From Tamlana sp. I1 (GTDB lineage Bacteria; Bacteroidota; Bacteroidia; Flavobacteriales; Flavobacteriaceae), in contig NZ_JACLAF010000017.1 of the NCBI RefSeq assembly GCF_015355625.1, forward strand, positions 1-64,000: DNA of 64,000 bases. The letters run 5' to 3'. The position numbers and the translations under genes were made by a program. The notes beneath the pieces are model-generated. The model was not told where the DNA came from and made no database searches. It worked only from the letters and a program-made list of their open reading frames with translations. Shown one piece after another: positions 20,986 through 41,769 of this stretch; position 1 is the stretch's first letter, and each line of letters starts with the position of its first letter.

Positions 20986-21059
20986 TTAAAAATGTTTTTA
21001 GGTTTTAAGTAACGAAATTAGCAAATCGAAATTGGAAAAAAAATAAAAATTAATTTCGT

Positions 21060-21099
21060 GACATTATGACATTTTTACAATATTGGCAGTACTTTTGCC
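21060..21099 (+). promoter_or_regulatory. grpE-dnaJ promoter with sigma54-like -24/-12 and upstream 11-mer
   Basis: GACATTATGAC at 21060-21070, 12 bases, TTGGCA at 21083-21088, 6 bases, TTGCC at 21095-21099. The GG (21085-21086) and GC (21097-21098) are 10 bases apart, as in sigma54 promoters. The same arrangement with identical spacing is found before clpB (41604-41643, minus strand). TACTTTTG at 21090-21097 also fits a housekeeping -7 box, and TTGGCA/TGCCAA form an inverted repeat, so other readings exist. The grpE ATG is 35 bases downstream. Confidence 0.65.
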
Positions 21100-21133: not shown

Positions 21134-21697
21134 ATGAGTAAAAATGATAAAACCAACGAGATAGAAAACGAGCAAGTAGACGGTGTGCAAAACGAAACTG
21201 TTGAAGTTGAAAATCAAGAAGTTGAAGAAATAGCGAACGAGGAAACTGCAGAAGAAAAACTTGAAGCCGAGTTAAAGCAAGAGAAAGATAAATTTCTGCG
21301 TTTATTTGCTGAATTTGAAAATTATAAAAGAAGAACATCTAAGGAACGTATTGAGCTTTTCGCTACTGCCAGCGAAGGTGTAATGAAAACATTACTGCCA
21401 GTTCTTGACGATTTTGAACGCGCTTTAAGTCATATTGAAGACGATAAAGAAGCTGAAGAATTACGTAAAGGCGTGTTGTTAATTTATCAGAAATTAATAA
21501 ACACTTTAGAGCAAAAAGGTTTAAAAGCGATGGAGGTGAAGCAAGGCGATGTTTTTAACGCCGATAATCATGAAGCTATTACGCAAATTCCAGCACCAAG
21601 CGACGATTTAAAAGGAAAAATTATTGATGTTGTGGAAAAAGGATACGTTTTAGGAGAAAAAGTAATTCGTTTCCCAAAAGTAGTTATTGGGCAATAA
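21134..21697 (+). CDS. grpE: nucleotide exchange factor GrpE
   Basis: Releases ADP from DnaK during the chaperone cycle. The 187-residue protein has an acidic, Glu-rich N-terminus (about 1-55), a long coiled coil (EAELKQEKDKFLRLFAEFENYKRR), and the C-terminal four-helix/beta domain (LPVLDDFERALSH, FNADNHEAITQ, GYVLGEKVIRFPKVVIGQ). I chose ATG at 21134; a TTG 17 codons upstream would lie within the promoter. dnaJ follows after 8 bases. dnaK is not in this window. Confidence 0.95.
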   Translation: MSKNDKTNEIENEQVDGVQNETVEVENQEVEEIANEETAEEKLEAELKQEKDKFLRLFAEFENYKRRTSKERIELFATASEGVMKTLLPVLDDFERALSHIEDDKEAEELRKGVLLIYQKLINTLEQKGLKAMEVKQGDVFNADNHEAITQIPAPSDDLKGKIIDVVEKGYVLGEKVIRFPKVVIGQ

Positions 21698-21705
21698 TAT
21701 AAGAT

Positions 21706-22827
21706 ATGGCAAAAAGAGATTTTTACGAAATATTAGGAATTAATAAGGGAGCTAGTGCTGCTGAAATTAAGAAAGCTTATAGAAAAAAAGCAATCGAATT
21801 TCATCCAGATAAAAACCCTGACGATAAAGAAGCAGAAGCTAAATTTAAGGAAGCAGCTGAAGCCTACGAAGTTTTAAGCGACGAAAATAAAAAAGCACGT
21901 TACGACCAATATGGTCACCAAGCCTTTGAAAACGGCGGCGGTGGTTTTGGCGGCGGTGGCATGAATATGGACGACATATTCAGTCAGTTTGGTGATATTT
22001 TCGGAGGCGGCGGCTTCGGTGGTGGTTTTGGAGGCGGCGGTTTTGGCGGTGGTCAACGTCGTGTTAAAGGAAGCAATCTGCGTATTCGCGTCAAGCTAAC
22101 TTTAGAAGAAATTGCTAATGGCGTAGAGAAAAAAATTAAAGTAAAACGTAAAGTTCAAGCGCCAGGAACAACTTATAAAACATGTCCAACTTGTAATGGT
22201 AGCGGACAAGTAACACGTATTGCAAATACCATTTTAGGTAGAATGCAAACGGCTGCACCTTGTAACGATTGTGGTGGCGCAGGACAAACAATTGATAAAA
22301 AACCTAAAGATGCCGATGCTCAAGGCTTAAAAGTTGCCGAAGAAACCGTTTCGATTAAAATACCAGCAGGTGTGGTAGATGGTATGCAACTTAAAGTTTC
22401 AGGAAAAGGTAATGAAGCGCCAGGAAATGGTATTTCGGGTGATTTAATTGTGGTTATTGAAGAAGAACAACATGATAAATTACAACGTGAAGGCGATAAT
22501 TTACATTACGATTTGTATGTAAGTTTCCCTGAAGCTGTTCTAGGAACTTCGAAAGAAATTGATACCGTTACAGGAAAAGTGCGTATTAAAGTAGAAGCTG
22601 GCGTGCAATCTGGTAAAATTTTACGCTTACGCGGAAAAGGAATTCCAAGCATAAACGGTTACGGAAAAGGAGATCTTTTAGTTCATGTTAATGTTTGGAC
22701 GCCAAAAACATTGAATAAACAACAAAAAGACTTTTTTGAAGCCATGCAAGATGATGAGCATTTTGAGCCAAAACCTGAAAGTTCAGACAAATCTTTCTTT
22801 GAAAAAGTGAAAGATATGTTTTCATAA
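21706..22827 (+). CDS. dnaJ: chaperone protein DnaJ
   Basis: Co-chaperone that stimulates DnaK ATPase activity. The J domain (1-70) has the HPD triad at 33-35, then a Gly/Phe-rich region (76-117), a zinc-binding region, and two beta-barrel client domains (about 120-345). Only two CxxCxGxG motifs are present (Cys160/163 and Cys186/189) instead of the usual four, so it can form one zinc site, not two. The total length (373) is otherwise normal. I recall the same reduction in other flavobacterial DnaJ proteins. It is in an operon with grpE and ends at a strong terminator. Confidence 0.96.
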
Positions 22828-26338: not shown

Positions 26339-27502
26339 ATGCCCAAAATATTAGTTGTAGAAGATGAAGCAGCGATAAGACGCGTGTTGGTTAAAATTCT
26401 TTCTGAAGAAAATGATACTTACCAAGTTGAAGAAGCTGTTGATGGTTTAGACGGAATAGAAAAAATTAAGAATACCGATTTCGATTTGATTCTATGCGAT
26501 ATTAAAATGCCAAAAATGGATGGCGTTGAAGTTTTAGAAGCCACGAAAAAGATAAAACCCGAAGTGCCTATGGTTATGATTTCTGGTCATGGCGATTTGG
26601 ATACTGCTGTAAATACGATGCGTTTGGGGGCTTTCGATTATATTTCGAAACCACCAGATTTAAACCGTTTGTTAAATACGGTTAGAAATGCATTGGACAG
26701 AAAAGAGTTGGTTGTAGCTAATAAAATCTTAAAGAAAAAAGTTAGTAAAAAATATGAAATGGTTGGCGAAAGTGCCGCTATTACTCAAATTCAAGAGATT
26801 ATAGATAAAGTTGCGCCTACCGATGCCCGTGTTTTAATTACAGGAGCAAATGGTACAGGAAAAGAACTGGTAGCCCATTGGCTACATGAAAAAAGCGCCC
26901 GTTCTAAAGCATCTTTAATTGAGGTGAATTGTGCTGCAATTCCTTCTGAACTTATTGAAAGTGAATTGTTTGGTCATGTTAAAGGTGCTTTTACAAGTGC
27001 TAATAAAGACCGTGCAGGAAAATTTGAAGCAGCCAACGGTGGCACCATTTTTCTTGACGAAATAGGGGACATGAGTTTATCTGCTCAAGCCAAGGTACTT
27101 CGCGCTTTACAGGAAAATAAAATTCAGCGTGTTGGTAGCGATCGCGATATAAAAGTGGATGTACGTGTAATTGCAGCCACGAATAAGAACTTAAAAAAGG
27201 AAATTGAAGCAGGACGTTTCCGTGAGGATTTATATCACAGATTGGCCGTAATTTTAATTGAAGTTCCTTCGTTAAATGACAGACGTGCCGATATTCCTTT
27301 ATTAGTCAGTCATTTTTCAGAAAAAATAGCAAATGAAAACGGTACTGCTAAAAAACAGTTTTCAGATAGCGCTATAAAACTGCTTCAAGAATACGATTGG
27401 ACAGGAAATATTAGAGAACTTCGTAATGTTATCGAACGCTTAATAATACTAGGTGGTAAGGAAGTAAGCGAACAAGATGTGAAATTGTTTGCTAGTAAAT
27501 AA
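26339..27502 (+). CDS. sigma54-type response regulator lacking a DNA-binding domain
   Basis: A 387-residue protein with an N-terminal receiver domain (phosphoacceptor Asp54 in LCDIKMPKMDG; Lys104 in SKPP) and an NtrC-type AAA+ domain (Walker A GANGTGKE 169-176, Walker B IFLDE 237-241, NCAAIPSELIESELFGH, and the arginine-containing FREDLYHRLAV). The sigma54-contacting loop reads GAFTSA (216-221) in place of GAFTGA. The chain ends right after the AAA+ lid (NVIERLIILGGKEVSEQDVKLFASK), so the usual Fis-type helix-turn-helix is missing. No cognate histidine kinase is adjacent. It may activate from solution, pair with a separate DNA-binding partner, or have another role. Confidence 0.92.
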   Translation: MPKILVVEDEAAIRRVLVKILSEENDTYQVEEAVDGLDGIEKIKNTDFDLILCDIKMPKMDGVEVLEATKKIKPEVPMVMISGHGDLDTAVNTMRLGAFDYISKPPDLNRLLNTVRNALDRKELVVANKILKKKVSKKYEMVGESAAITQIQEIIDKVAPTDARVLITGANGTGKELVAHWLHEKSARSKASLIEVNCAAIPSELIESELFGHVKGAFTSANKDRAGKFEAANGGTIFLDEIGDMSLSAQAKVLRALQENKIQRVGSDRDIKVDVRVIAATNKNLKKEIEAGRFREDLYHRLAVILIEVPSLNDRRADIPLLVSHFSEKIANENGTAKKQFSDSAIKLLQEYDWTGNIRELRNVIERLIILGGKEVSEQDVKLFASK

Positions 27503-38901: not shown

Positions 38902-41502
38902 TTAGCCTTTAACTAAATCGTCTTGATTTCTAAAAACGAGTTGATTATCAAAAGCGTCTAATAAAATAATACTATCGGTAGTTACTTTTCCTGCTAAAAT
39001 TTCTTTACTCAAAGCGTTTAAAACTTCTTTCTGAATGACACGTTTTACAGGTCGCGCACCATATTCAGGATTGTATCCTTTGTCGGCTAAATAGGCGACA
39101 GCTTCTGGAGTGGCGTCAAAAGTAATGCCTTGTTCTGCAATCATTTTTGTAATGCCTTTAAGTTGTAAGCCTACAATTTCAACAATGTTTTCTTTGCTTA
39201 ACGGTGTAAACATTACGGTGTCGTCAATTCTATTTAAAAACTCTGGTCTAACCGTTTGTTTTAAAAGCGCTAACACGTCAACCTTTGCAGCTTCAATTGC
39301 AGAATCGATATCCTTGGTGGCTTCAAATCGCTCTTGAATAATTTGACTACCCATATTTGAAGTCATGATGATAATCGTGTTTTTAAAATCGGCAATACGC
39401 CCTTTATTGTCTGTTAAATGCCCTTCATCTAAAACCTGTAATAAAATATTAAAGGTATCTGGATGAGCTTTTTCAATTTCATCTAAAAGAACAACAGAAT
39501 ACGGCTTGCGTCGTACAGCTTCCGTTAATTGTCCGCCTTCATCGTAACCCACGTATCCTGGAGGCGCACCAACCAAACGGCTTACGGCATGACGTTCTTG
39601 GTATTCGCTCATATCAATTCGCGTCATGGCATTTTCATCATCAAATAAATATTCAGCCAAAGCCTTTGCAAGTTCTGTTTTTCCAACGCCTGTAGTTCCT
39701 AAAAACAAGAAGGTTCCAATAGGTTTTTTCGGGTTTTGTAAACCAGCACGACTTCTTCTAACAGCATCACTAACCGCTTCAATTGCTTCTTCTTGGCCAA
39801 CCACACGTTTGTGTAATTGATCTTCCAATTTTAAAAGTTTTTCACGTTCACTTTGTAGCATTTTGGTAACCGGAATTCCAGTCCATTTGGCTACAACTTC
39901 AGCAATGTCATCATAAGTCACTTCTTCTTTAATTAATGAAGTTTCCGATTGTTCTTGAAGTTTCTTTTGTGAAATTTCAAGTTCTTCTTGGGCTTCTTTA
40001 ATTTTTCCGTAACGCAATTCGGCTACTTTACCATAATCGCCTTCACGTTCTGCTTTTTCAGCTTCAAGCTTGAAATTTTCAATCGCTTGTTTGGTGTTTT
40101 GAATATGGTCAACAACTTCTTTTTCGCTCTTCCATTTGGCGTTAATTTCATTTCTAGACTCTTTAAGATTAGCTAAATCGGCACGAAGTGATTTTAACTT
40201 TGTTTCATCTTTTTCACGTTTAATGGCTTCAATTTCAATCTCCAACTGCATGATTTTTCGATCTAAAACATCTAATTCTTCTGGTTTAGAGTTGATTTCC
40301 ATGCGTAATTTTGATGCTGCTTCATCCATTAAATCGATGGCTTTATCTGGTAAAAATCGATTGGTAATGTATCTGGATGAAAGTTCTACGGCACCAATAA
40401 TAGCCTCGTCTTTTATGCGTACTTTATGATGCGTTTCGTATTTTTCTTTAATACCTCGAAGAATTGAAATAGCACTTTCGGTGTCTGGCTCGTCGACCAT
40501 CACTTTTTGAAAACGACGCTCTAAAGCCTTGTCCTTTTCAAAGTATTTTTGATATTCATCTAAAGTGGTTGCGCCAATAGCACGCAGTTCGCCACGGGCT
40601 AAAGCGGGTTTTAAAATATTAGCCGCATCCATAGCGCCTTGTCCGCCGCCAGCACCTACAAGTGTGTGGATTTCGTCTATAAATAGTACGATATCACCTT
40701 CGCTCGTGGTTACTTCTTTAATAACTGCTTTTAGTCGTTCTTCAAATTCGCCTTTATATTTGGCACCAGCAATTAGTGCGCCCATATCTAAAGCGAAAAT
40801 TTGTTTGTCTTTAAGGTTTTCAGGAATATCGCCATCAATAATTCTATGCGCTAAACCTTCAGCAATAGCGGTTTTACCTGTTCCAGGTTCACCTACTAGA
40901 ATGGGGTTGTTTTTTGTTCTACGCGATAATATTTGTAGAATACGTCTTATTTCTTCATCACGACCAATAACAGGATCTAGTTTGCCGTCTTTGGCCAACT
41001 GATTTAAGTTTTTGGCATATTTATTTAGGGAATTATAGGTCTCTTCTTGACTTTGAGAGGTTACATTTTCGCCTTGACGTAGCTCGTTAATAGCTGCTGT
41101 AAGACCTTTTTCTGTAACACCTTGGTCTTTTAGCATTTGTGCTATTTTGCTGTTCGATTTAAGAATGGCAAGAATTAAATGTTCTATAGAAACATAATCA
41201 TCTTTCATTTTTTTTGCAATAATAGAGGCTTCATTCAAGCTTTTTCCGGCTTCACGGGACAGCATAAGTTCGGTTCCAGAAACTTTAGCAAAACTTTCAA
41301 TCTGTTTGTCTAACGCTTGTTCAAGCATAGAAACGTTTACATTCAGTTTTTTTAATAAAAAAGGTAATACGTTTTCGTCCACTTCAAAAATCCCTTTGAA
41401 GAGGTGTTCGTTTTCAATTTGCTGGTGGCCATAACCTTGCGCAATTTGTTGCGCTTGTTGTATGGCTTCTTGCGATTTTATGGTATAATTATTTAAATTC
41501 AT
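38902..41502 (-). CDS. clpB: ATP-dependent disaggregase ClpB
   Basis: An 866-residue hexameric AAA+ chaperone that works with DnaK/DnaJ/GrpE to rescue aggregated proteins. The N-domain (1-145) is followed by AAA1 (Walker A GEPGTGKT near residue 205, Walker B VLFIDEIHTLVGAG), the middle coiled-coil domain (about 400-530, KLKSLRADLANLKE and neighbours, which distinguishes ClpB from ClpA/C), and AAA2 (Walker A GTTGVGKT near 607, Walker B VVLLDEIEKAH). The C-terminal arginine region ARPVKRVIQ is present. Its promoter shares a three-part element with grpE-dnaJ, so the two chaperone units are probably co-regulated. Confidence 0.97.
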   Translation of the reverse strand: MNLNNYTIKSQEAIQQAQQIAQGYGHQQIENEHLFKGIFEVDENVLPFLLKKLNVNVSMLEQALDKQIESFAKVSGTELMLSREAGKSLNEASIIAKKMKDDYVSIEHLILAILKSNSKIAQMLKDQGVTEKGLTAAINELRQGENVTSQSQEETYNSLNKYAKNLNQLAKDGKLDPVIGRDEEIRRILQILSRRTKNNPILVGEPGTGKTAIAEGLAHRIIDGDIPENLKDKQIFALDMGALIAGAKYKGEFEERLKAVIKEVTTSEGDIVLFIDEIHTLVGAGGGQGAMDAANILKPALARGELRAIGATTLDEYQKYFEKDKALERRFQKVMVDEPDTESAISILRGIKEKYETHHKVRIKDEAIIGAVELSSRYITNRFLPDKAIDLMDEAASKLRMEINSKPEELDVLDRKIMQLEIEIEAIKREKDETKLKSLRADLANLKESRNEINAKWKSEKEVVDHIQNTKQAIENFKLEAEKAEREGDYGKVAELRYGKIKEAQEELEISQKKLQEQSETSLIKEEVTYDDIAEVVAKWTGIPVTKMLQSEREKLLKLEDQLHKRVVGQEEAIEAVSDAVRRSRAGLQNPKKPIGTFLFLGTTGVGKTELAKALAEYLFDDENAMTRIDMSEYQERHAVSRLVGAPPGYVGYDEGGQLTEAVRRKPYSVVLLDEIEKAHPDTFNILLQVLDEGHLTDNKGRIADFKNTIIIMTSNMGSQIIQERFEATKDIDSAIEAAKVDVLALLKQTVRPEFLNRIDDTVMFTPLSKENIVEIVGLQLKGITKMIAEQGITFDATPEAVAYLADKGYNPEYGARPVKRVIQKEVLNALSKEILAGKVTTDSIILLDAFDNQLVFRNQDDLVKG

Positions 41503-41603: not shown

Positions 41604-41643
41604 GTCAATTATCTTACCAATGCGAATTATCAGACAAAATGTC
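41604..41643 (-). promoter_or_regulatory. clpB promoter with the element shared with grpE
   Basis: On the minus strand: GACATTTTGTC (41643-41633), 12 bases, TTGGTA (41620-41615), 6 bases, TTGAC (41608-41604). The blocks and both spacings equal those before grpE. A second palindrome TGACAAAAAGTCA lies further upstream (41676-41664). The clpB ATG is about 100 bases downstream. The -12 dinucleotide is GA here, where sigma54 promoters have GC. Confidence 0.6.
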
Positions 41644-41769
41644 GTAAATCAACTGGTTTTTAATGACTTTTTGTCAAAACGTAAGATTTATAAAAGATAA
41701 CGACTTACTGTAAAATTAAAAATAATATTTGAATTTTCGCTTTCGCGGAACACTATAAAGCTATTGATT

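Follow-up and report, generated by a model that had tools for sequence, protein, structure and literature searches.

A probable sigma54-dependent chaperone promoter of the Bacteroidia and its candidate dedicated activator

The window analysed here, a 64,000-nucleotide stretch of contig NZ_JACLAF010000017.1 from Tamlana sp. I1, contains two chaperone loci. On the plus strand lie grpE (21134..21697, 187 aa; Pfam GrpE, 9.6e-39) and dnaJ (21706..22827, 373 aa; Pfam DnaJ and DnaJ_C), presumably in one operon, and on the minus strand lies clpB (38902..41502, 866 aa; Pfam Clp_N, AAA_2 and ClpB_D2-small). The original prediction had described the same three blocks in front of both: at grpE a first block GACATTATGAC (21060-21070), then 12 bases, TTGGCA (21083-21088), 6 bases and TTGCC, and at clpB GACATTTTGTC (41643-41633, minus strand), then 12 bases, TTGGTA (41620-41615), 6 bases and TTGAC. 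When re-read, the sequences, coordinates, blocks and both spacings proved exact. The GG-N10-GC match to a sigma54 promoter is likewise exact at grpE, whose -24/-12 element is TTGGCA-GTACTT-TTGC (21083..21098, plus strand); the sigma54-like element of clpB, TTGGTA-AGATAA-TTGA (41605..41620, minus strand), has GG-N10-GA.

Read symmetrically, the upstream block becomes a predicted activator box of two TGWCA half-boxes, 3 bp apart. At grpE this box is TGACATTATGACA (21059..21071, plus strand), that is TGACA-TTA-TGACA, with 11 bp to TTGGCA at 21083 and its first base 25 bp before the T of TGGCA. At clpB it is CGACATTTTGTCT (41632..41644, minus strand), or CGACA-TTT-TGTCT from 41644 to 41632, again with 11 bp to TTGGTA (41620) and 25 bp before the T of TGGTA. 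A second predicted clpB box, TGACAAAAAGTCA (41664..41676, minus strand), was overlooked in the original prediction; it begins 57 bp before the T of TGGTA and lies 32 bp above the first box, a distance of three helical turns.

By eye, against the consensus sequences, neither a sigma32-type -35/-10 nor CIRCE was seen at the grpE and clpB promoters. At 21090-21097, TACTTTTG matches TAnnTTTG, described in the available text of PMC9723704 as the sigmaA -7 element of flavobacteria, and overlaps the sigma54 -12 of grpE; both holoenzymes, sigma54 and sigmaA, might use this site. The overlap of TACTTTTG, starting at 21090, with the grpE -12 also speaks for a different explanation, in which grpE and clpB are transcribed from the primary sigmaA and the box serves as a class II activator site near -42. 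However, on the strand that encodes clpB, TAnnTTTG does not occur in the interval up to the next gene upstream, and the TA is unconserved (T 33%, A 54%) in 39 aligned class-wide grpE promoters, which were selected for TGGCA and TTG and not for TA. Mapped chaperone starts of Flavobacterium psychrophilum, as given in the part of PMC9723704 at hand, bear a sigma54 motif, and a sigmaA origin of this pattern seems very improbable.

Sigma54 as the reader of the -24/-12 agrees with the distribution of rpoN: the gene is present in 92 of the 99 genomes searched within the order and in 72/72 of good quality, the Tamlana genome and the 0.3-0.6-Mb genomes of family f16 included. According to the accessible text of PMC9723704, the F. 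psychrophilum starts mapped at groES, lon, dnaK, grpE, htpG and clpB have the sigma54 motif (SM4 regulon). Sigma54 promoters have also been predicted for groEL, groES, grpE, dnaJ, dnaK and ibpA, in species across Bacteroidota but mostly in Flavobacteriia, in the sections seen of PMC12316311, which cites Sabree 2009 for sigma54-dependent GrpE and GroES. The -24/-12 pattern, the occurrence of rpoN and the published F. psychrophilum starts (PMC9723704) together support the sigma54 reading that had been proposed. Because one of these papers maps such chaperone promoters and the other predicts them, that flavobacterial chaperones are under sigma54 control was known before this analysis (PMC9723704, PMC12316311).

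The Tamlana genome itself (4,036,669 bases in 32 contigs; Flavobacteriaceae) contains copies within 0-1 mismatch of the 40-bp pattern at grpE-dnaJ, htpG, dnaK and a SMODS (CBASS-like) operon, and looser copies at clpB and groES. The pattern as originally predicted has 3 matches without mismatch in 4.04 Mb (grpE, clpB and the SMODS operon) and 8 with up to three mismatches, against 4 for the reversed pattern. Its three 2-mismatch matches are htpG (C3:140081) and dnaK (C12:14548), both named from their translations, and one at C11:321317 that has no assigned gene. A half-box pattern, TGNCA-N11-TTGGCA-N6-TNG, matches without mismatch at exactly five places (htpG, grpE, groES, dnaK and SMODS) and with up to one mismatch at 23, compared with 8 when reversed; at groES of this genome the outer half-box is lost and the inner one kept. 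A loose search for TTGGCA-N5-7-TTGC yields mostly noise (36 matches versus 24 reversed).

The SMODS copy (G000:C32:5979-6018) is a near-perfect promoter copy (L007, L472) in front of a SMODS plus S_4TM operon and lies, by eye, beside transposase-like genes. At three relatives of the operon (93, 72 and 53% identical; found among 249 genomes of the family) the promoter copy is absent. The SMODS copy is therefore peculiar to this genome and does not speak for a regulated CBASS defence at large.

Across the order, I searched 99 genomes with TGWCA-N3-TGWCA-N11-TTGGCA-N6-TTGC, allowing up to two mismatches, and obtained 77 matches in 51 genomes, against 3 for the reversed pattern. Of these, 75 were classified (G003:C1:2453020 and G096:C1:284595 were left out), and chaperone genes stand behind 63: grpE, htpG, groES, dnaK or clpB in 62 and an hsp20, identified by Pfam, in one. 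The other classified matches precede the operon of miaB and an activator gene here called bEBP2 (3), SMODS (1), secA (3), a 101-aa ORF of family f8 (3), or nothing or an intragenic position (2). The secA copies (L198, L199 and L204; one named by Pfam, two by likeness) have two mismatches and belong to family f15. The f8 ORF is conserved after the promoter in L189, L193 and L195, and one copy gave no Pfam match; it is possibly a so far unrecognised member of the chaperone regulon. A draw of genomes from the whole phylum gave matches in 65 of 296 (4 matches for the reversed pattern), divided as 32/32 in the Tamlana family, 0/6 in f5, 16/38 in the rest of the class and 17/220 outside it; the 18 matches in those 17 genomes were left out of the gene reading. 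This draw supplied 22 further loci, all within the class, and 21 of them are chaperone genes. Like the 63 of 75 in the order, this count shows the pattern enriched before chaperone genes rather than placed at random.

To these pattern searches can be added a set of 100 grpE genes found by homology, independently of the pattern: 30 chosen by hand, in 25 cases from a genome that the pattern search had not matched, and the best 70 of 109 genomes of the class. One (L352) was too short, which left 99 promoters. In 83 a sigma54-like 16-mer reaches a score of 15 or more; 71 of these 83 also have, within 95 bp, a box with a score of 13 or more, and in 66 of the 99 the box starts 24-26 bp before TGGCA; further boxes start at 45 bp (2 promoters) and at 57-58 bp (3). 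In 100 dinucleotide-preserving shuffles the corresponding means were 4.66, 0.23 and 0.03, with maxima of 11, 2 and 1. The thresholds (15 for sigma54, 13 to 14.5 for the box) were set during data inspection and were identical for the shuffles; below them fell the sigma54 element in 16/99 promoters and the box in 12 of the other 83. Two examples in one window could be accidental, a chance likeness of two AT-rich upstream regions. That explanation is refuted by the 77 matches against 3 reversed and by the 66/99 promoters against 0.03 in shuffles, and its probability is now practically negligible.

Families f5 and f16, with one and no match to the order-wide pattern, had been taken for exceptions. 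This was dropped, as the architecture is present at their homology-found grpE genes in slightly altered letters or spacing, for instance TGTCATTATGACA-N12-TTGGCA-N6-TTGC in the 0.6-Mb f16 genomes and TGCCTAATTGTCA-N11-TTGGCA in f5. The chaperone targets, joined to the -24/-12 pattern, the rpoN occurrence and the published F. psychrophilum starts (PMC9723704, as far as its text was available), support the proposed dedicated stress promoter, sigma54-dependent and with a proximal activator site. It had been assigned to a single lineage; the dedication to chaperones holds, and the architecture is wider than that, extending across the class.

Viral sequences also carry the pattern. In IMG/VR there are 43 exact matches (L267-L309) with 28 distinct 40-mers, and the first genes behind them, sorted by simple patterns with representatives checked against Pfam, are 16 UVR-like (14 by script, 2 by eye), 11 Hsp20, 9 Hsp70, one sigma70-family factor and 6 other or none. 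The UVR-like type of L271 and L286 had no Pfam match. Phage genes are present on some of these contigs, for example the terminase large subunit in L267 and L269, and in L269 a ClpB/ClpC-type ATPase gene is divergent from the UVR gene. Among eight dnaK loci read from 34 phage records, three have a strong -24/-12, one of these with a box at 35 bp, and the architecture is absent at the other five (LR756504, LR756508 and three Lak phages). Large phages of Flavobacteriales (Moraphage) carry DnaK, DnaJ and Hsp20 according to the available text of PMC12619734, in which sigma54 and rpoN have zero occurrences. The viral promoter copies suggest phages that plug their chaperones into the stress circuit of the host.

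The opening of sigma54 promoters requires an enhancer-binding activator. Two types of sigma54-activator were found in the Tamlana genome. Type 1 (26339..27502, plus strand) is an activator homologue with a receiver and an AAA+ domain and the motif GAFTSA, without a DNA-binding domain, encoded 5 kb from grpE. Type 2, bEBP2, has an AAA+ domain, a linker of about 90-135 residues with a conserved stretch and a Fis-type HTH, and no receiver domain. The motif GAFTGA is present in 14/14 aligned bEBP2 proteins, and 12 loci from 11 genomes have GAFTGA (4) or GSFTGA (8); LGIS[EQ]RTLYRK occurs in all 14 and in the 12 loci, and the class of the C-terminal HTH was assigned by eye. PspF is likewise an AAA+ protein with a Fis HTH and without a receiver; it represses its own gene from its binding site and is held by PspA. 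Among 25 of the 27 NCBIfam models listed for the Tamlana bEBP2, no cut-off was reached, and against the PspF equivalog it scored 276.6 bits, below the cut-off of 443.55. Among the best 80 of at least 589 relatives of bEBP2 are proteins from Flavobacteriaceae, Chryseobacterium, Bacteroides, Pedobacter and Chitinophaga, with weaker ones from Balneolales and Gemmatimonadetes.

The gene order miaB-bEBP2-(lptE, TPR gene)-secG-groES-groEL recurs in 13 neighbourhoods, without lptE in a 345-kb genome. Of the 20 stretches fetched around bEBP2, 16 contain groES, the one from that genome included; on the same strand it accompanies bEBP2 in 28 of 80 named neighbourhoods and is missing from 52, many of which are short or from Bacteroidales. 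A PF00158 scan (E <= 1e-25) of 22 genomes found eleven with a single match, which is bEBP2 in ten (G008, G022 and G043 of f8; G011 and G045 of f11; G012 of f12; G016, G028, G038 and G094 of f16) and type 1 in G032. At least one promoter copy was found in nine of the ten, and none was seen in G008, where bEBP2 is present. In G061 (95% complete) the scan found no activator.

Type 1 was first taken for the regulator from its proximity to grpE. If it were, a partner would read the box, and in its favour are its homology to sigma54 activators, its place near grpE on one contig in several genomes, and G032 (86% complete), which has the promoter and in which type 1 is the sole activator found; G041 and G081, of the same genus, have both types. 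Against it, type 1 lacks a DNA-binding domain, occurs in 60/99 genomes (at least 55% identity over nearly the whole length) and went undetected in families f8, f11, f12 and f16, which retain the promoters. It was therefore dropped as the box reader, and I consider its role as the activator to be highly doubtful. In an f6 relative (L092), the type 1 gene adjoins a Ppx/GppA-like gene.

The box also lies on the promoter of the bEBP2 operon itself. Upstream of miaB a box of at least 14.5 is present in 48 of 52 loci (0.5 in mononucleotide shuffles, maximum 3), and it is absent before miaB in the 345-kb genome. Since TAnnTTTG follows 16-21 bp after the box in 32 loci (0.005 in shuffles), the box overlaps the -33 region; in several other miaB loci TAnnTTTG lies, by eye, about 8-11 bp after it. 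The seen part of PMC9723704 places an SM5-type start before sigma54 regulator-LptE genes, unlike the sigmaA promoter predicted at miaB, so there may be more than one promoter for the bEBP2 gene. By analogy with PspF, the miaB box suggests negative autoregulation of the bEBP2 operon.

The position of the box was studied in 148 groES and grpE promoters, 125 of which reach 15 or more for the sigma54 element. Strong boxes in these 125 start at 24-26 bp (41) or beyond 30 bp (28), with zero elsewhere up to 30. The 28 far boxes, a count that takes in related genomes and 15 boxes overlapping hairpins, cluster at 25 + 10.5k bp (R=0.73), with outliers at 61 and 123. Boxes within the secG terminator hairpins before groES were tallied apart, because hairpin sequence could mimic the box; outside terminator-like hairpins the phasing persists (n=13, R=0.68, simulated p 0.0003), as it does for one far box per clade from a hand-made list (n=10, R=0.68, p 0.0009), and the best-fitting period is about 10.25 to 10.75. 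In L385, L386, L402, L406, L407, L411 and others, the arm and loop of the secG hairpin upstream of groES hold TGNCA-N3-TGNCA, often in helical phase with the groES promoter, and this hairpin is possibly both a terminator and an activator site. The original prediction had called the 12-base gap unusual for a sigma54 activator, and I agree; some lineages have the box further upstream, mostly at whole turns, as an enhancer would be.

This geometry bears on whether a heat-shock repressor of the HrcA/CIRCE kind, distinct from the activator and also set over the bEBP2 operon, could instead use the box as its operator, with the activator acting without the box. A position near -24 and over the sigmaA promoter of the bEBP2 operon suits a repressor, and the protein that binds the box is itself a prediction. 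However, the helical phasing of the far boxes extends to some 88 bp from TGGCA, which is needless for blocking, and the 345-kb genome retains rpoN, bEBP2 and boxes at groES and grpE. An activator on an enhancer, working from one face of the DNA, explains the phasing; a blocking repressor does not, and I regard a repressor operator as unlikely. One dedicated activator very probably reads the box, and with the sole-activator genomes, the box on its own operon and the helical phasing as reasons, bEBP2 is the candidate. When the HTH residues of bEBP2 were compared with the box variants by eye, no clear pattern emerged.

Judged by size and gene content, the f16 genomes of 0.3-0.6 Mb are presumably flavobacterial symbionts, those of 0.6 Mb Blattabacterium-like. 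In the whole of one of them, G016 (344,793 bases), four sites score at least 14.5, a number not above that in mononucleotide-shuffled sequence (8 strand matches versus 8 to 16), so that their positions are the informative part. At groES the box lies 36 bp from TGGCA; at grpE it lies 24 bp away, with TTTGCA in place of TTGGCA; and another of the four stands directly before an in-frame ATG, apparently inside a longer gene. At dnaK of this genome (L489) the remaining box lies 165 bp upstream without a clear -24/-12. The retention of rpoN in such symbionts is called unusual, and tentatively tied to nitrogen, in the accessible text of PMC3971599, whose table has rpoN absent in one of four symbionts and whose text counts Walczuchella, Uzinura and Blattabacterium among the keepers and leaves Sulcia out. 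A 'Sulcia-like' label for G016 was dropped, as G016 has rpoN and Sulcia is not among the keepers named there. The sites before groES and grpE suggest that rpoN is kept for chaperones in minimal genomes, which offers a concrete answer to why some flavobacterial symbionts of 0.3-0.6 Mb retain RpoN.

What the DNA itself shows is a pair of elements whose distance hardly varies, which lie before chaperone genes and are widespread, together with a box on the bEBP2 operon's sigmaA promoter. With good confidence, I interpret the pattern as an enhancer-dependent sigma54 promoter of a heat-shock-type chaperone regulon of Bacteroidia, its box probably bound by bEBP2. In the proposed mechanism, the RpoN holoenzyme would occupy the -24/-12 element TTGGCA-N6-TTGC and bEBP2 the site TGNCA-N3-TGNCA, centred near -45, from where a bEBP2 hexamer would work on a single DNA face to remodel the closed complex. 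Through the box on its sigmaA promoter, bEBP2 would repress its own operon. More tentatively, and by likeness to PspF and PspA, free chaperones or another partner could hold the receiver-less bEBP2 inactive until unfolded protein releases it; I would put this at rather below an even chance. On balance I lean towards a single receiver-less activator as the chaperone master regulator of all Bacteroidia: it would govern groESL, grpE-dnaJ, dnaK, htpG and clpB through sigma54 from sites that may shift by whole helical turns, repress itself, account for rpoN retention in tiny genomes and be exploited by large phages. If so, the phage Hsp70, Hsp20 and UVR-motif genes would switch on with the host chaperone response.

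For Bacteroidota, a phylum of central importance in gut, soil and ocean communities, the literature as far as it was accessible assigns sigma54 to chaperone control and no activator, and in its open-licence part no description of the box or of a dedicated activator was found. What is new here is a probable dedicated activator with its site, and a regulon that is likely class-wide, with gene, site and geometry now defined.

Several known systems can be set beside this one. The SM4 regulon of F. psychrophilum shares the sigma54 -24/-12 at groES-groEL, lon, dnaK, grpE-dnaJ, htpG and clpB, but the seen text of PMC9723704 names three PF00158 proteins and assigns none to the regulon; in its main text TGTCA, TGACA, inverted repeat and palindrom- have zero occurrences, as has 'heat shock' in the text available. 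The PSSM of PMC12316311 covers the -24/-12 only, with activator specificity said not to be available for every organism, and no activator site was found in the sections at hand. Moraphages (PMC12619734, available text) resemble the viral contigs in their chaperone genes, whereas a host-type promoter is what the contigs described here add. The sigma32 regulon and HrcA/CIRCE have the same target genes but differ in sigma class, site and type of regulator. PspF is like bEBP2 in its receiver-less domain plan and in repression of its own gene from its own site, which bEBP2 is predicted to share; bEBP2 differs in its long linker with a conserved stretch, its predicted cytoplasmic chaperone targets and a putative site usually near -45.
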